Shown one piece after another: positions 42,525 to 50,526 of a DNA stretch of 64,000 bases. A model generated the notes under the pieces. The model did no database searches, was not told where the DNA came from, and saw nothing but the letters and a program-made list of their open reading frames with translations. How positions within the stretch are numbered: the stretch's first letter is position 1; each line of letters starts with the position of its first letter. The stretch spans positions 62,001-126,000 of the forward strand of contig CALUYU010000001.1 of NCBI GenBank assembly GCA_944325075.1, in the 5' to 3' direction. This DNA comes from Candidatus Gastranaerophilales bacterium (GTDB taxonomy: Bacteria > Cyanobacteriota > Vampirovibrionia > Gastranaerophilales > Gastranaerophilaceae). A program made the translations under genes and the position numbers.

Positions 42525-43418
42525 TTAATCTTTAAATAAATCGTAAAAATGATAGAATTGTAAAGGAGCAAGTTTTGTCATTGTTTCTAAAAATTCTATG
42601 AATTCTGATTTCATTTTTTCAAGGCTTGCGGCTTTTTTATCCTCGTTATAGAATTTTTTAAGATAAATTTTATAGCGGTCGTTTTTTTCTTTAATGGCGC
42701 TTATAAAATATATAGGAACTTCCATGATCTGTGCGAATTTAAAAACCCCAAGCGGGAATTCGACTGTGCTATTTAGGAACTTTGCTTCAAAATTAAGGCT
42801 TCCTGCCGAAACTCTATCTCCGGCCATATATATAATTCCGCCTTTATTTAATTTGTCTTTCATTTCGATTGAAGTATTTATGTTAATGTCTTCAATCGGG
42901 TATGGATACATAGGTACATCATTCGCTATTTTATTCAAAAATCCGTTAAAGATTTTGCACTGATCTTTTGACATGAAAACATAAACGCCATTGCAGGTAT
43001 CTTTTATATTCGTGCTCATAAATACACGCATAACATCTATGTTTCCCACGTGGTTGCATATAAAAAATACGCCTTTTTTTCGCTTAAGATCGGACAGCCA
43101 CTGTTCACGGTCTTTATTGTCCGCAAATGTTATTTTTTCAGGAGGAAATTTGCCTGAGAAAATTTCCATTCTGTCTATTAAGGTATATGAATAATTTAAA
43201 AAATGGCGGAATATATTAATTAGTGAAGGTTTAAGACCAACTTTTACCAAATATTTTTTTGAATATGAACGTATCTCTTTGGCACCTGTAAAAACGAACA
43301 GCGTTATAAAAAAAGTAATAAATTTGACTGCATTTTTCCCAAAAATTTTGTGTATAAAAAACATCACAAATAATCTTTTAGTTCCGGCAGCTTGTTCTTT
43401 TATTTCATACCACTTCAT
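42525..43418 (-). CDS. LPLAT-family acyltransferase (HtrB/LpxL-like)
   Basis: The 297-aa membrane-associated protein shows the acyltransferase His motif HVGNIDVMR (CNHVGN near residue 120) and the later GGIIYMAGDRVS, as in lipid A late acyltransferases and the acyltransferases of aryl polyene clusters. It would attach a fatty or polyene acyl chain to a membrane lipid or sugar. It overlaps the methyltransferase gene by 14 bases and ends the cluster. The substrate is inferred from context only. Confidence 0.82.
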   Translation of the reverse strand: MKWYEIKEQAAGTKRLFVMFFIHKIFGKNAVKFITFFITLFVFTGAKEIRSYSKKYLVKVGLKPSLINIFRHFLNYSYTLIDRMEIFSGKFPPEKITFADNKDREQWLSDLKRKKGVFFICNHVGNIDVMRVFMSTNIKDTCNGVYVFMSKDQCKIFNGFLNKIANDVPMYPYPIEDININTSIEMKDKLNKGGIIYMAGDRVSAGSLNFEAKFLNSTVEFPLGVFKFAQIMEVPIYFISAIKEKNDRYKIYLKKFYNEDKKAASLEKMKSEFIEFLETMTKLAPLQFYHFYDLFKD

Positions 43419-44490
43419 TTTTTATACACTCCAAAAGCGTGTAGTCATGTATTCCAATGGCATATTTTTCCTTGACTTTAAGTCCGGCTTTATCTATAAA
43501 TTCTCTCATATCCTTTTCGGTATACATTTTACTGTTTCCGTTAGCCATGCAGGTAAAATATAGCGATATATGTGTTAAAGAGTATTCTGCGCCTTTGAAA
43601 TTTTGATTGTCTATAAAAGGTTCCAGTATATAAATATGAATGTTATCATCAGAATATTTTGCAATATTACTAAGTATAGAAATAATTTGTTCTTCTGAAA
43701 AGCAATCTAAAAATTGACTCATAAAAACGGCTCCGGACATTTCAGGGAATTTTGCATCCGGGGCAATAACGTTTATTCCGTAAAACCCGCATCTTTCCGA
43801 TGGAACATTACTTTTTGCCCGTTCAAGATTTTCAGGTAAATCCAAAAGGGTTATTTTACAGTCTTTGTTGTATGCAAGACAAGCATTTTCAAATTTTCCG
43901 GTATTGCCGCCTATATCAAAAATTTCTTTCGGATCATCTTTAAAAATAATTTTTAATACTTCTTCAAAACAAGTATCAGAATAATAATGGTCAAATGCAT
44001 ACCAGCTTTTTTGAACATTTTCAGGTAATTTAGACAATGCCGGATAAATTGTCGGGTAATCGCCTAAATATTTTTTTAACCCTTCAGGTTTTCCGGTTTT
44101 AAAAGATTTTTCAATTTCGCTTGCTCCAAGGTAACAGACATCTTTCATGAAATTGAAGTTGGCTCTTGTCATTTCATTTTCCAGAAAAGTACGTCCAAGT
44201 TCTGTTAAAGAGAATTTTTTATCATTACACTCTGTAATTCCTGCAACAGTTGCTGCTTCAAAAAGGGTCTTGGCGCAATATCTTGAAATTTTGCAGGACG
44301 ATATTATTTCATCGAGATCAGATGGTTTTCTATTCAAAAGTTCCAATACCCCAAAGTCAATTAATGATGCAATTACCTGAAAAGTAAACGGCGCAAAAAT
44401 TATCTCCTGGGCTCTGGTAAGTGCTTCCAGCTGACGGGGATATTTTTTTCTTGTTCTTCTATATTTTATTTGAGTTGCTTTTTTGTCCAT
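43405..44490 (-). CDS. SAM-dependent O-methyltransferase
   Basis: The 361-aa product has an N-terminal winged-helix dimerisation domain (about 25-120, VIASLIDFGVLELLNRKP...LTELGRTFL) and a Rossmann methyltransferase domain with motif I IFDIGGNTGKFENA and LLDLPENLERAK, as in caffeate/acetylserotonin-type O-methyltransferases. Aryl polyene clusters often carry such a gene to methylate the aryl head. The start is divergent from the phosphopantetheinyl transferase, 20 bases apart; it overlaps the acyltransferase by 14. Confidence 0.85.
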   Translation of the reverse strand: MDKKATQIKYRRTRKKYPRQLEALTRAQEIIFAPFTFQVIASLIDFGVLELLNRKPSDLDEIISSCKISRYCAKTLFEAATVAGITECNDKKFSLTELGRTFLENEMTRANFNFMKDVCYLGASEIEKSFKTGKPEGLKKYLGDYPTIYPALSKLPENVQKSWYAFDHYYSDTCFEEVLKIIFKDDPKEIFDIGGNTGKFENACLAYNKDCKITLLDLPENLERAKSNVPSERCGFYGINVIAPDAKFPEMSGAVFMSQFLDCFSEEQIISILSNIAKYSDDNIHIYILEPFIDNQNFKGAEYSLTHISLYFTCMANGNSKMYTEKDMREFIDKAGLKVKEKYAIGIHDYTLLECIKNEVV

Positions 44491-44498
44491 ATTGATAT

Positions 44499-44508
44499 TA
44501 AAATTATA
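44499..44508. promoter_or_regulatory. Overlapping divergent -10 boxes
   Basis: On the plus strand TAAAAT (44499-44504) lies six bases before ATG 44511, with TTGCTT 18 bases upstream. On the minus strand TATAAT (44508-44503) faces the methyltransferase start. RNA polymerase could hold only one at a time. Confidence 0.5.
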
Positions 44509-44510
44509 CC

Positions 44511-45146
44511 ATGAAGATTTTTTATTTAAACCTGCGGAATTATAAAATACCTAAGATAAGCCGTATTGAACGAAAAAAGCTTCAATCACAGCTTGGGCGG
44601 TATATCGTTGATTATGTTGCAAATTTTTACTATGATATCAGGCAGCGGGAAGTTTTTACTGAAAACGGCAAACCTAAATTTCTACATTCAGATTTATGTT
44701 TTAATATTTCCCACTCAAACGACATTGTTCTGGCTGCATTTGATAGTATGCCCTTGGGTGTTGATGTTGAATTTATGCGTGATAGAAACTTTAAAGATCT
44801 TTTTGCCCATTACGGGATAAATGCTGACGGTAAAGAACTTTTTTACAGGTTTTGGACAAACATGGAGGCAAAGATTAAAATTCAGGCTGAAGTTAAGCAG
44901 GAATTGTGTTTGAAGTTGAACGATTCCTACATGGTTTCAGTTTTATCGGCTAATCCTGATGAAGGTATTAAAACAAGACTTAAGATATATGAGCTCAGCA
45001 GCCCGGCTGCAAGAATAAATCCTAACGAACTGATTAATTTAAAACTTGTTAATGCAAGCAGCGCAAATGAAAATACGCTTGTTGCACAGGAAAGAATAAT
45101 CGCGCCTGAGGAGTTTTTCCCCCCGCTGGCTCTGAAAACTGAGTAA
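44511..45146 (+). CDS. 4'-phosphopantetheinyl transferase (Sfp type)
   Basis: This enzyme loads the pantetheine arm on acyl carrier proteins. Seen: FNISHSNDIVLAAF (64-77), GVDVE with metal ligands Asp85 and Glu87, and FWTNMEAKIK (114-123) with Glu119. The usual Lys before that Glu (WTxKEA) is Met118. It is the only gene of the cluster on the plus strand. Its last 220 bases lie opposite the 3' end of the MMPL exporter gene. A -10 box sits six bases before the ATG. The two acyl carrier proteins at 49996-50500 are the obvious substrates. Confidence 0.88.
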   Translation: MKIFYLNLRNYKIPKISRIERKKLQSQLGRYIVDYVANFYYDIRQREVFTENGKPKFLHSDLCFNISHSNDIVLAAFDSMPLGVDVEFMRDRNFKDLFAHYGINADGKELFYRFWTNMEAKIKIQAEVKQELCLKLNDSYMVSVLSANPDEGIKTRLKIYELSSPAARINPNELINLKLVNASSANENTLVAQERIIAPEEFFPPLALKTE

Positions 45147-47068
45147 TCAAGACCAAATCCCATTATCAAATATATTGCCATAACGTGAAACATATTTATT
45201 TCCTGATTACACAAACTGACCAAACCTATTGAAAAGCAGGCTGCTATCATAGATGGTGCTGTTATCTTTAATGCTTTAACCATACTTTTATAAATAATTC
45301 CAAGCAATATCAATAAAATCGTAAGAATAGGCAATATTAATTTTAGGCAATGTATACGGCATTCTCTGATTTTTGATGAAATGTCCCGCTGTAAGTCAAT
45401 ATATTCAACTCCTTCACTTTTAATATTCTCAGGAGATGTAACATCATATAAAACTATAACAGACTTATTTTTATCAACCATAAATTCTGAAAGATATGTA
45501 TCCGGATTATATTCCAAAAAACCTTCAGGAGGTTGTTTGTTAATGAGATTTGTAACCTGAGCAGGGGTTAAAAATTCTGCATAATCTTTCAAGGATGTTT
45601 TATACAAGTCGTTTATGAGCGTTTCATTTTCTTTCTGGCGTTTATGCGATGGTATAAACTTTGATAAAGATTGATAATTATTCAGGTTTTCTGCCAGTTT
45701 TTCTTCTTTTTGCAATATTTCTTCCGTATTTTTACCTTCAACAACCAGAAATGAAGTTTTATAATTTGAGTCTGTAATTTCTTTGAATAAATTTTCTGCC
45801 TGTAAGAGTTGTTTGGAGGGGATATACATGTTTTTTATATCATCGTTGAATTTGATTTTATAAAATCCACCTGCAATTATCAGGATAATTAATGTTATAA
45901 TCAGAGGTTTGAATTTGTTTGGAATATTAACGCAAAGATGTTTTTCGTAATCATTAAACAAATTTTTGCATATGGCCGGATAAAAAAGTACTACAAAAAG
46001 ATAAACAGTTACAAGGCCGGTAATTGTGTAAAGAGAAATTTGTTTGAGCATTTCCAATCCGGAGAATAACAAAATAAAGAATGCTGAAACAGTTGTTAAA
46101 AGGCTTACTGTTAAACTTTTAAAAATTTTACTTAAATTTTTTTCCACAAAAAAGTGCAAAGAGTAATCAATGCATATACCTATCAATGTTGTAGAAAAAA
46201 CAAAGGTTAAAACATGTATTGATCCGAAAACTTGTGAAACAACAGTGTAACCGGTAAATATACCAAGGGCCAGACTTGTCATTGCCGGGATTAGAAGTTT
46301 TAAATTCCTGAAATAAAAATAACAAAGACCAATTATAAATAATGTTGATAAGATACAGATTAAATTGATTTCAATTATAGATTTTGAACTTGCGTAATAT
46401 GAATGTATGGGCGCTCCGGTAAGATATATTTTAACATTGGCCGATGTTAGAGTTTTTTGCAGATTAATCAGTGTTTTAATCTTTGTGTTTATAACGGTTG
46501 GTGAAAGCGCAAGATCCTGATTAACTGTCAACGGGATTATTTTGTATAATTTATTATCATGGTTTAACAATCCGCTTGTTTGGTAATTTTGCCCGTCCGC
46601 AAGGCTCATCAGATAATCCGTGAACAATAAAAAAGGATCCTCTTCTATAGGAAGTAAAGAAACTCCAAGCGGATTTAAAAGTCTTTCAAAACTTTGTTGT
46701 TTTATTGTTTCGTAATCCTTATTCAGTAATAGTTTTCTGGAATTGTCAGAGAGCAGGTTCCTGCTGTATTTTTTGTAGCCGTCAAGAATTGGTTTTATGT
46801 CAGCTGATTCTGATTTAAAAATGTTTTTATCTATGTTTTCAAAAATTTTTTCATTTGTTGTTTCGCAATCTCCGGCTTCATTACACTCAATTATTATATT
46901 TATTTTGGAAGAATATTTGTTGCTTAACGTGACAATTAAATCGCTGTTTTGATTTTTTGAAAAAACTGCACGTAATATATTTGTCTCGGTTTTTGCCGGA
47001 CGGATTATCGTTATAATGCCTAAAAACAGTATTACTATTAAAAATAATATTCTAAGAAAGTTTTTCAT
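44927..47068 (-). CDS. MMPL/RND-type exporter of the aryl-polyene-like cluster
   Basis: The 713-aa product has two blocks of six membrane helices, each with an N-terminal extracytoplasmic loop, and the family motifs GICIDYSLHFF (first block) and GFGLDYSVFRA (second block). Exporters of this type accompany aryl polyene and similar lipid clusters and are thought to move the product outward. Helices 11-12 are encoded in the 220 bases that overlap the phosphopantetheinyl transferase gene on the other strand, so the overlap is not just a stray tail. It starts 4 bases after the LolA-like gene. Confidence 0.88.
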   Translation of the reverse strand: MKNFLRILFLIVILFLGIITIIRPAKTETNILRAVFSKNQNSDLIVTLSNKYSSKINIIIECNEAGDCETTNEKIFENIDKNIFKSESADIKPILDGYKKYSRNLLSDNSRKLLLNKDYETIKQQSFERLLNPLGVSLLPIEEDPFLLFTDYLMSLADGQNYQTSGLLNHDNKLYKIIPLTVNQDLALSPTVINTKIKTLINLQKTLTSANVKIYLTGAPIHSYYASSKSIIEINLICILSTLFIIGLCYFYFRNLKLLIPAMTSLALGIFTGYTVVSQVFGSIHVLTFVFSTTLIGICIDYSLHFFVEKNLSKIFKSLTVSLLTTVSAFFILLFSGLEMLKQISLYTITGLVTVYLFVVLFYPAICKNLFNDYEKHLCVNIPNKFKPLIITLIILIIAGGFYKIKFNDDIKNMYIPSKQLLQAENLFKEITDSNYKTSFLVVEGKNTEEILQKEEKLAENLNNYQSLSKFIPSHKRQKENETLINDLYKTSLKDYAEFLTPAQVTNLINKQPPEGFLEYNPDTYLSEFMVDKNKSVIVLYDVTSPENIKSEGVEYIDLQRDISSKIRECRIHCLKLILPILTILLILLGIIYKSMVKALKITAPSMIAACFSIGLVSLCNQEINMFHVMAIYLIMGFGLDYSVFRASGGKNSSGAIILSCATSVFSFALLALTSFKLISSLGFILAAGLLSSYILSLVLIPSSGLADKTETM

Positions 47069-47071
47069 ACC

Positions 47072-47602
47072 TTAGCTGCATTGTGTAAAATTGAGTTTAG
47101 TACTTCCGTTATTCAGAGTGTTAATATTTATTTGATCAATTCCTGTATTTCCCGATATAATTATATTTTTCAGGTGTGACGCTGCCGGGCTTTTTGCCTT
47201 TGGCTTCAGAGCAAGTTCCCACTTACTGCCGTATTTTTGAAAATATATATCAAAATTTTTTTCAATGTAGGAATAATCTTTTTTGGAAATTGATATAATT
47301 ATATCAGTAATATATTTATTTTGTCCGGAAGTGTATGAGGTTGTATATTTAACCGGATAAAGAGTATTAAATATTACGCCTTTTTTTGCAAAAAATTGAA
47401 AATCTCCGCCGGATTTTAACACATTTGTTGAATTGTTTAGATATTTTTCCTGGGTAAATTGGCAGGAGGCATTTTTAAATTCTGGGATACTAATATCTTT
47501 AGGCCGGACTTTATGTGAAAAAATATCGTCTGCTGTGCAAACATCCGCCACTGATACCGAAATTATCAAAATTCCAAATAATAAAATAATAACCTTTTTC
47601 AT
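47072..47602 (-). CDS. LolA-like periplasmic carrier
   Basis: A signal peptide (MKKVIILLFGILIISVSVADV) precedes a LolA-type half-barrel: NASCQFTQEKYLNNSTNVLKSGGDFQFFAKKGVIFNTLYPV matches the family pattern F-x-Q-x-K-x(8)-S-x-G-x-F. LolA carries lipoproteins across the periplasm; homologues inside aryl polyene clusters probably carry the lipid product. It lies between the thioesterase and the MMPL exporter with 3-4-base gaps. Cys residues at 22, 47 and 175 are notable. Confidence 0.82.
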   Translation of the reverse strand: MKKVIILLFGILIISVSVADVCTADDIFSHKVRPKDISIPEFKNASCQFTQEKYLNNSTNVLKSGGDFQFFAKKGVIFNTLYPVKYTTSYTSGQNKYITDIIISISKKDYSYIEKNFDIYFQKYGSKWELALKPKAKSPAASHLKNIIISGNTGIDQININTLNNGSTKLNFTQCS

Positions 47603-47605
47603 AAT

Positions 47606-48019
47606 TTAAACTTTACAACAAGAAAGCTTTTTTTTCAAATTATCAGGTGCGCTGTAAATACTTTCTTTTGTTGTATTGTTTATGCAAATTTGCATGCTTC
47701 TGGCTTTAAAAAGTTTTTCTCCGGATTTATCATCAAAAATTGTATATTTGATAATAATACATGGTTCAATTTCTTCAAGAACAGTAACAATGCGTAAAAC
47801 CTGATTAAAATAACAAGGTTTTATGAATTTTAAATCCATTGTTGCAATCGGGTACGCGATGCCATCTTTTCTCATGTCATCGTAATCATATCCGAGTTTA
47901 TTTAATAAATCACATCTGGCGGTTTCAAGATATTTGATATAATTTCCATGCCAGACAACATTCATTGGATCAAGGTCGTAAAATTGTACGGTTATTCGTG
48001 TTTCTGCCTGAAATATCAT
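47606..48019 (-). CDS. 4HBT-type thioesterase
   Basis: The 137-aa hot-dog protein begins AETRITVQFYDLDPMNVVWHGNYIKYLETARCDLL, the classic 4-hydroxybenzoyl-CoA thioesterase/YbgC active-site region with Asp in DPMNVVWHGNY. In an aryl-polyene-type pathway it would release or edit acyl chains on the carrier protein. It lies 13 bases after the AMP-ligase gene and 3 before the LolA-like gene. Confidence 0.9.
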   Translation of the reverse strand: MIFQAETRITVQFYDLDPMNVVWHGNYIKYLETARCDLLNKLGYDYDDMRKDGIAYPIATMDLKFIKPCYFNQVLRIVTVLEEIEPCIIIKYTIFDDKSGEKLFKARSMQICINNTTKESIYSAPDNLKKKLSCCKV

Positions 48020-48032
48020 AAACTTCCTTTCG

Positions 48033-49601
48033 TTATTTTACAAATATACCTGATGAATACACTTTGTCATCACCCGAATAGGTAAATTCTACTGAATTAT
48101 CTTTATTTGTTAATTTTAGGATTAACTCTTCATCCGGTTTAATTATATTTGAGTATTTTATTCGTTTTGCCTCTTTATTCGGAAGCTTTATATTAAATAC
48201 GTCATTTGCAAACCAGTTTGCATAAAACAGCTGTACAACTCCCGGCAATACCGGCATAACATCAAAATGGCCGCGAAAAAAGTTAGAATTTCCTTTAAAC
48301 AGAAGTTTTAATTCAACCGATTCTTCAGTTTTTTTTCTGTGAAGTATAAATGGATAGGAAAGATTTAATCCAAAGATGTGTTCTAGTTTCTCTCTGTTAA
48401 TTTTTCCGTTCGATGTTTTGGGAATTTCGTCTAAAAAACGCCATCTTTTCGGTGTTATTTCCAAATAATCAGAAAGGTAGGTTTTAAGTTCTTTACTGTT
48501 TAATTCTTTGTTATCAGTAACTATTGCACAGACCAGGTCGTTTTCATATTTAAAACAGTATGCATCACAGACATCTTTATGTTTGTTTAAAATATTTTCG
48601 ATTTCCGGAAGAGAGATACGCTTTTCCCGAATCTTCACAATTCTGTCGTTTCGGCCCAAAAGTATAAATTTTTCATCAGACAGCAGCCTTACTTTATCTT
48701 CCATCTGTAAATTTTTACCATTAAAAAAATTAGAATTTACAATCAGGCAGCTATTATTGTTTTGTGAAACGCTTACATTTTCTAAAATGTTAAAATATTC
48801 GGTATTAGTTCTGTAGGCGATGGTTCCGCTTTCCGTACTTCCATATATATCAACAACAAGCGAATTTTTATTGAAGAAGTTTTTTATTTTTGAATTTAAT
48901 TTATCTCCAGCTGAAAAGATTATATATGGCGGCGAAGAAAAATTTATATTATATTTAGCCATTTTTTCTAAAAAAGACGGTGTTGAAATAAGAACATAAG
49001 GTTTTGAAGTTGTTATTTGTTCCGGGTACTCAATTCTGTCGGTATTAATTACATAGCCGGCAGAAAATGGGATTATAAATTGAAAAACAATGCCAAACAT
49101 GTGTGCCATTGTTGTTGTAGAATAGAATACTAAATTATTTATAAATTTAAACAAATTTAATATGATATGAGTTTCTTCATCCATATTTGTTAAATTTTTG
49201 GTAACGTTTTTCGGTTTCCCTGATGAACCGGAGGTGAAAAAGTTAATATTTACTTCTTGAGGGTTTATCTCACCGAATACATCATTAATACTGTTGAGTT
49301 TTTCGTATTCTGAGGCAATATTTTCTTTTGCCAATATATAATTAAAGTTAAGCATTTTAAGTCTGTTCTTATCAGTTATAAGATAAATTGTTTTGTGGGC
49401 AAACACTGAGGCAAAGAAGTTAACGATGAAATCAAACCCGTCATCGCAGCATATAACCACATTTTGAATATTGCTTTCTAAATAAGTCTTTTTAACTGCA
49501 CAGATATATTCTTTAAGTTCTTTCATAGAAACTTGGTTATGGCCGCGTTCTATTACTATGTCGTTATCATATTTATTCGTATAAAATTTTTCCAGTATCA
49601 T
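48033..49601 (-). CDS. Acyl-ACP/CoA ligase fused to hot-dog dehydratase (ApeH-ApeI-like)
   Basis: Residues 1-415 form an AMP-binding adenylation domain with NFFTSGSSGKPKNVTKN (P-loop), DIYGSTESGTIAYR, LLGRNDRIVKIREKRISLPEIE and the catalytic Lys in KTSNGKINREKL. Residues about 430-522 form a FabZ-like hot-dog domain with NFFRGHFDVMPVLPGVVQLFYANWFA. In E. coli-type aryl polyene pathways these are separate enzymes (ligase ApeH loading the starter on the carrier protein, dehydratase ApeI); here they are one chain. It overlaps the membrane protein gene by 4 bases. Confidence 0.88.
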   Translation of the reverse strand: MILEKFYTNKYDNDIVIERGHNQVSMKELKEYICAVKKTYLESNIQNVVICCDDGFDFIVNFFASVFAHKTIYLITDKNRLKMLNFNYILAKENIASEYEKLNSINDVFGEINPQEVNINFFTSGSSGKPKNVTKNLTNMDEETHIILNLFKFINNLVFYSTTTMAHMFGIVFQFIIPFSAGYVINTDRIEYPEQITTSKPYVLISTPSFLEKMAKYNINFSSPPYIIFSAGDKLNSKIKNFFNKNSLVVDIYGSTESGTIAYRTNTEYFNILENVSVSQNNNSCLIVNSNFFNGKNLQMEDKVRLLSDEKFILLGRNDRIVKIREKRISLPEIENILNKHKDVCDAYCFKYENDLVCAIVTDNKELNSKELKTYLSDYLEITPKRWRFLDEIPKTSNGKINREKLEHIFGLNLSYPFILHRKKTEESVELKLLFKGNSNFFRGHFDVMPVLPGVVQLFYANWFANDVFNIKLPNKEAKRIKYSNIIKPDEELILKLTNKDNSVEFTYSGDDKVYSSGIFVK

Positions 49602-49999
49602 AATATTTTTTTCTTTTTTAAAATTCTTCTTATAGTATATTCAACTATAAAAAGAGTACCAAGTAAAATATATGAGATAAAACCGTTGTATATTGCCCAT
49701 ATATGTTCATTTAAAAATATCGTCCAGACTGAGATTAAAAAATTGATTAACAGGAACACGCACCATATATATGTTAAATTTTTCGTATAAACAAGTCCAA
49801 AATCGTTAAGTTCTCCGTCCAGGGCTTTTGCAAATTTTTGTATAATTGTTTCTTTGGTAAAAAGTGAACTCCAAAATACTGTACATATTACAAAATTTAC
49901 TGCAACAGGATATAATTTTACAGCAAATATTTTGGTGTAATGAAATAGTATAATTACTGTTAAGGTAATGCATAGAGGCATTAGAAATTTAAATTTCAT
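49598..49999 (-). CDS. COG4648-type membrane protein
   Basis: Four membrane helices in 133 aa (about 3-22, 28-48, 73-93, 98-118), with a cytoplasmic loop TKETIIQKFAKALDGELNDFGLVYTKNLT between helices 2 and 3. This loop, with its F-x-K-x-L-x-G-x-L pattern, is typical of the small membrane proteins of aryl polyene clusters. Its role is not known. It overlaps the carrier protein gene upstream and the ligase gene downstream by 4 bases each. Confidence 0.8.
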   Translation of the reverse strand: MKFKFLMPLCITLTVIILFHYTKIFAVKLYPVAVNFVICTVFWSSLFTKETIIQKFAKALDGELNDFGLVYTKNLTYIWCVFLLINFLISVWTIFLNEHIWAIYNGFISYILLGTLFIVEYTIRRILKKKKIL

Positions 50000-50250
50000 T
50001 TTATAAGTTCTTCTATTGCATTTACTACATCATTAATATTACGGATTTGCTTAAAGTTTTCAGGAGATATTTTCTTATTGGTAAAGTATTGGAGTTTCAC
50101 TGCCAAATCTACTGCATCAATACTATCAAGGTCAAGATCTTCAAAAAGATTAGCCTCAGGCGTAATTAATTCCTTGTCGATTTCAAAATCATCAACAAGA
50201 ATGTCGGATAATTTATTAAAAATTTCTTCTCTTGTAAATTTTTTATCCAA
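49996..50250 (-). CDS. Acyl carrier protein 2 (ApeF-like)
   Basis: The 84-aa acidic protein has the phosphopantetheine site DLDLDSIDAVDL with Ser43. It overlaps the other carrier protein by 8 bases. Two consecutive carrier proteins are a hallmark of aryl polyene clusters, where one carries the starter and the other the growing chain. Confidence 0.93.
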   Translation of the reverse strand: MDKKFTREEIFNKLSDILVDDFEIDKELITPEANLFEDLDLDSIDAVDLAVKLQYFTNKKISPENFKQIRNINDVVNAIEELIK

Positions 50251-50500
50251 CAGTATTACTCCTTATATAATCTGCAAGTGTTTTAACCGAATAAAAATAT
50301 TGTTTATTTTCATCTTTATCAGAACTCATTTCAAGATTATATTTTTTCTTTAAAGCCATACCGAGTTCTAATGCATCTATAGAGTCGAGCCCAAGCCCGT
50401 CAATAAATAAAGGTTCATCATCCTTAATATCTTCCGGCTTAATATCTTCAAGCTCCAGTGAATTTATTATTAATTCTTTTAAGTCTTTTTCAATACTCAT
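50243..50500 (-). CDS. Acyl carrier protein 1 (ApeE-like), first gene of the cluster
   Basis: Numbered from ATG 50500 the 85-aa product has GLGLDSIDALELG with Ser40 as the pantetheine attachment site. TTG 50509 gives a frame three residues longer, but TAGGAAT fits the ATG slightly better. It heads a run of seven minus-strand genes down to 44927 with overlaps or gaps of at most 13 bases. Confidence 0.93.
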   Translation of the reverse strand: MSIEKDLKELIINSLELEDIKPEDIKDDEPLFIDGLGLDSIDALELGMALKKKYNLEMSSDKDENKQYFYSVKTLADYIRSNTVG

Positions 50501-50526
50501 TAATCTCAATTCCTATTTATAATATA

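Follow-up and report, generated by a model that had tools for sequence, protein, structure and literature searches.

The question raised by this locus is whether a compact block of genes that resembles the accessory part of an aryl polyene (APE; yellow pigment lipid) cluster, and contains neither a ketosynthase nor a ketoreductase, represents a pathway of its own or part of a known one. The stretch analysed (64,000 nucleotides, here called the window) corresponds to C1:62001-126000, C1 being a 126-kb contig of a 2.26-Mb draft genome with 107 contigs. An earlier sequence-only reading had left two answers side by side: condensing enzymes located elsewhere in the genome, or a set that builds a different acyl lipid from fatty acid synthase chains.

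The ten genes at window positions 42525-50509 (C1:104525-112509) have the functions first given to them, and most of them overlap or almost abut their neighbours, as originally described (Table 1). The start codon of the ApeE gene is an ATG at about 50500, with an upstream TTG at 50509 in the listed open reading frame. Pfam and NCBIfam assignments were firm for the acyl carrier proteins (ACPs), the ligase-dehydratase, the thioesterase and the methyltransferase, weak for the phosphopantetheinyl transferase (PPTase) and the MMPL exporter, and weak or silent for the LolA-like, COG4648-like and LPLAT proteins. Family HMMs were built from 40 related loci and run against two annotated APE clusters, one from Pseudoalteromonas sp. 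CuT4-3 and one from Cedecea neteri. They paired the block genes one to one with both reference clusters, including the LolA-like, MMPL, COG4648 and LPLAT genes, while shuffled sequences scored far lower. The proposed family placements are thus borne out, for the ACPs by PF00550, NF003757 and NF006617, and for the LolA-like and MMPL proteins by the HMMs. The methyltransferase has no counterpart in either reference cluster; it probably methylates the head group, which is the role of ApeB. The PPTase and ApeM genes are convergent and their 3' ends overlap by 220 nt. A PPTase gene was also observed at the same place in G189, G269 and several other relatives.

Table 1 Features of the two halves of the cluster (positions in the window unless marked C1)
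Feature	Position	Strand	Matches and residues
ApeR, second ketosynthase	C1:29472-30692	-	7f27 5e-155, 4ewg 7e-148; Cys164, His301, His335
ApeQ, ketoreductase	C1:30689-31420	-	FabG families above cut-off; Psa_Q 2e-115; catalytic Ser-Tyr-Lys invariant
ApeP, dehydratase	C1:31425-31877	-	PF22817
ApeO, ketosynthase	C1:31880-32962	-	best solved relatives 6qsp_A, 7f28_B; Cys129, His254, His288 invariant (35 rows)
ApeC, chain-length factor partner of ApeO	C1:32995-33600	+	6qsp_B and 7f28_A the only matches among solved structures
ApeD-like acyltransferase	within C1:29472-34342	+	
LPLAT acyltransferase, acyltransferase half of ApeJ	42525-43418	-	HMM Psa_AT 1e-56, Ced_J_GT2AT 8e-38
FlxJ-like O-methyltransferase	43405-44490	-	PF00891; NF053543 FlxJ 386 bits (cut-off 560)
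4'-phosphopantetheinyl transferase	44511-45146	+	NF047349 4e-11, NF042922 1e-8, NF007676 AcpT 2e-7, all below cut-off; HMM Cedecea AcpT 1e-10
ApeM-type MMPL/RND exporter	44927-47068	-	TIGR00921 6e-14, below cut-off; HMM Ced_M 2e-68, Psa_M 1e-62
ApeL-type LolA-like periplasmic carrier	47072-47602	-	weak NF053544 LolA2_flexi 6e-6; HMM Ced_L 5e-14, Psa_L 2e-6
ApeK-type 4HBT thioesterase	47606-48019	-	PF13279; TIGR00051 75.4 bits, above cut-off; Psa_K 1e-46
ApeH-ApeI fusion, AMP-forming acyl-ACP ligase and hot-dog dehydratase	48033-49601	-	PF00501, PF13193, PF22818 (ApeI-like); Psa_H 4e-67, Psa_I 6e-17; dehydratase His445 and ligase Lys400 invariant (36 rows)
ApeG-type (COG4648) membrane protein	49598-49999	-	nothing above cut-off in Pfam search; HMM matches to ApeG of Pseudoalteromonas 1.7e-33, Cedecea 1.7e-27
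ApeF-type acyl carrier protein	49996-50250	-	PF00550; NF003757 116 bits, above cut-off; HMM best match Psa_F 1e-32; Ser43 invariant
ApeE-type acyl carrier protein	50243-50500	-	PF00550; NF006617 96.8 bits, above cut-off; HMM best match Psa_E 7e-37; Ser43 invariant (alignment, 35 loci)

A ketosynthase search of the genome gave two matches on C1 outside the window and a third, FabF-like match on contig C11. The chain-building half was located at C1:29472-34342, about 70 kb from the block. The description of the block as lacking ketosynthase and ketoreductase therefore holds for the window and is an artefact of its edge, which excludes this region; the proposed genome search for ApeO-, ApeR- and ApeC-type ketosynthases and an ApeQ-type ketoreductase finds all of them on C1. 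The closest solved structures include ApeO-ApeC of Xenorhabdus doucetiae (6QSP) and an ApeR (4EWG) (PMC8358021), and the pattern of matches suggests that 7f27 and 7f28 are the Acinetobacter baumannii ApeR and ApeO-ApeC of the same study. All tested catalytic residues (ketosynthase Cys-His-His, ketoreductase Ser-Tyr-Lys, ACP Ser and dehydratase His) are intact and invariant over 29-36 related sequences. The APE set is complete for the ApeO-ApeC pair, ApeR, ApeQ, the dehydratases ApeI and ApeP, ApeE/ApeF/ApeH, ApeG/ApeL/ApeM and ApeK.

Of 286 genomes of the order Gastranaerophilales, 122 encode ApeO and 123 the ligase-dehydratase, in each case distributed over 25 of 50 genera. Both halves occur together in 121 of the 122 genomes with ApeO; in 97 of these they lie on the same contig at a distance of at most about 10 kb, in 20 on different contigs, and in four (the window genome G000, G012, G183 and G241) they are separated by 67-93 kb on a single contig. 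Among the matches listed for a phylum-wide sample, none falls outside the order. The best 80 relatives in a contig search were nearly all Gastranaerophilales or without a name, and a plasmid collection yielded matches only from Proteobacteria. A contig titled uncultured Brachyspira (RUG745; L097) encodes an ApeR 80% identical to that of the window genome and is probably a mislabelled Gastranaerophilales bin.

The gene order is constant in the 40 extracted loci: R-Q-P-O faces away from C-D-E-F-G-HI-K-L-M-(B)-J, or, as a variant in genus g20, J-B-M-L-K-HI-G-F-E-R-Q-P-O runs in one direction with C-D divergent. The halves are contiguous in G189, G269, G063, G027, G013 and most other loci. G189 and G269, two close relatives in genus g20, have the ketosynthase and reductase genes immediately next to the ACP genes, with the same orientation and in the same operon, which makes the cluster an ordinary one and removes the unusual character first ascribed to it. 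Some variation was seen among relatives. Three genomes of the window's own genus (G103, G238, G255) contain neither ApeO nor the ligase, so that the cluster is variably present within the genus. The ApeO frame of L048, L055, L061, L062 and L082 is about 500 aa long and no separate ApeP was seen, so that ApeO and ApeP may be fused in several genera. The ApeJ-like acyltransferase appears to be fused to ApeM in L053 (3714-6731) and to the methyltransferase in L052 (14936-16888). In genera g2 and g14 (e.g. G001, G018, G143) the match to the ligase begins at about residue 105-120 in a frame of only about 425-460 aa, its first 100 or so residues being missing or diverged. In L085 (G218) the accessory half ends after the ligase, and ApeG, ApeF and ApeE do not adjoin it.

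The two halves were once one cluster; in the window genome a rearrangement has parted them between ApeD and ApeE. The contiguous state is likely ancestral to the split, since some of the strongest ApeO matches, apart from that of the window genome itself, come from G189 and G269 of genus g20. The split point lies between ApeD and ApeE in G000, G012, G052 and G241, and between ApeC and ApeD in G143 and G183. If the cluster descended vertically, parsimony on the ApeR tree requires four changes between the one-locus and two-locus states. In this tree the window's genus, represented by five genomes, is not monophyletic (p-AU 9e-5), which suggests exchange of the cluster between genera; old duplication followed by loss may also account for it. 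A search for a repeat common to both breakpoints in G000 returned only short matches at chance level. The separation of 70 kb rests on one contig of a draft assembly in 107 pieces, and the cluster is contiguous in most relatives, both of which would fit a misassembly. However, both halves lie inside a single contig of 126 kb, the flanking genes differ on each side, and G012, G052 and G241 are split at the very same point. We therefore regard misassembly as unlikely; the cluster is complete in either case.

Two other readings concern the product. Flexirubin is an aryl polyene esterified to a dialkylresorcinol, and the block shares with the flexirubin clusters of Bacteroidota an FlxJ-like methyltransferase, a LolA2-like carrier (NF053544, 26 bits) and an FlxB-like reductase (ApeQ, 296 bits against a cut-off of 340), all three below the curated cut-offs. 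No dialkylresorcinol synthase (DarB) above cut-off is present, and the reading was rejected on this ground. The sole DarB match of the genome reaches 23 bits (cut-off 550), lies away from the cluster and is of a strength also seen in 9 of 14 control genomes; two APE-type LPLAT acyltransferases are present instead, leaving a flexirubin cluster very improbable. In the second reading the block would do without condensing enzymes: its ACPs would be loaded with ordinary fatty acid chains and another kind of acyl lipid would result. This reading drew on the window without ketosynthase or ketoreductase and on a genome without ammonia lyase. It loses its footing because ApeO, ApeC, ApeR, ApeQ and ApeP are encoded on C1 and have intact active sites, because in close relatives these genes lie next to the block and share an operon with it, and because the halves co-occur as described above. 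The idea of missing condensing enzymes was accordingly rejected, and we consider such a lipid very improbable.

Compared to the APE clusters of Gammaproteobacteria (apeA-R of E. coli CFT073, Xenorhabdus doucetiae, Acinetobacter baumannii), the Gastranaerophilales clusters have in common ApeC, D, E, F, G, H, I, K, L, M, O, P, Q and R as well as the acyltransferase half of ApeJ. The gene order corresponds within each half; the Pseudoalteromonas and Cedecea clusters read C-D-E-F-G-H-I-K-L-M, with O-P-Q-R likewise. Most relatives differ in having the genes in two operons that diverge, and the window genome in having two separate loci; further differences are the fused H and I, a PPTase of their own beside ApeM, and the FlxJ-like methyltransferase, for which the two reference loci offer no ApeB for comparison. 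The H-I fusion itself is not new, since single-piece matches were also found in Acinetobacter, Burkholderia and Cupriavidus. The glycosyltransferase (GT2) half of ApeJ gave no match in the 40 related loci, where only the acyltransferase half is present. E. coli apeJ mutants retain partial pigment (PMC8253772), and the glycosyltransferase is an accessory part that polyene synthesis itself does not require. ApeN (DUF3261, LolB-like) was found near none of the clusters in the 40 loci. A genome search for it gave no match, with every control silent as well; no control matched in the PF21168 and PF11659 searches.

Taken together, we conclude with a probability of about 0.93 that the block forms one half of an apparently complete APE cluster, the half for loading, carriage and export; the product, starter, attachment and transport of the cluster are predicted from known systems. 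The product is best explained as an aryl polyene lipid of the outer membrane, since the pathway described for E. coli and Xenorhabdus (PMC8253772; PMC8358021) fits gene by gene. By analogy with that pathway, the PPTase would activate both ACPs and ApeH would charge ApeE with an aryl carboxylic acid. ApeO-ApeC and ApeR would condense malonyl units, ApeQ would reduce, and ApeI and ApeP would dehydrate; with no enoyl reduction, the chain would become a conjugated polyene, to be released by the thioesterase. The methyltransferase would probably cap the aryl ring, ApeD and the ApeJ-like LPLAT protein may join the polyene to a lipid, and ApeM, ApeL and ApeG are predicted to transport it to the outer membrane.

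The supply of the aryl starter deserves separate consideration. The sequence-only reading had remarked that the window has no ammonia lyase. PF00221 found none in the genome and none in 116 genomes of the family. Searches for UbiC and a Rv2949c-like lyase (PF04345, PF01947) gave no match either; chorismate synthase is present. In E. coli the supplying enzyme (chorismate lyase UbiC or ammonia lyase) is usually encoded outside the cluster and is therefore not a defining cluster gene. Since no ammonia lyase, UbiC or Rv2949c-like lyase was found, nor a GT2 or ApeN homologue in the examined loci, the starter and the final lipid may differ from those of known APE lipids. A tentative and rather doubtful extension of this would be that the aryl-polyene lipids of Gastranaerophilales obtain their starter by an unrecognised route or by uptake in the gut and use an anchor made without glycosyltransferase or ApeN, both starter and anchor being unlike those of Proteobacteria.

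The cluster is thus an ordinary, apparently complete APE cluster that is split in the window genome. No published APE report for Gastranaerophilales was found in the literature collection searched; large antiSMASH catalogues may list the cluster unremarked. The earlier reading was right to see genes of the aryl-polyene type in a cyanobacterial lineage that does not photosynthesise, with the caution that a split cluster can pass for a new pathway in a 64-kb view. The range of APE producers gains an uncultured, non-photosynthetic and little-described cyanobacterial order of the gut, about 43% of whose sampled genomes carry the cluster.
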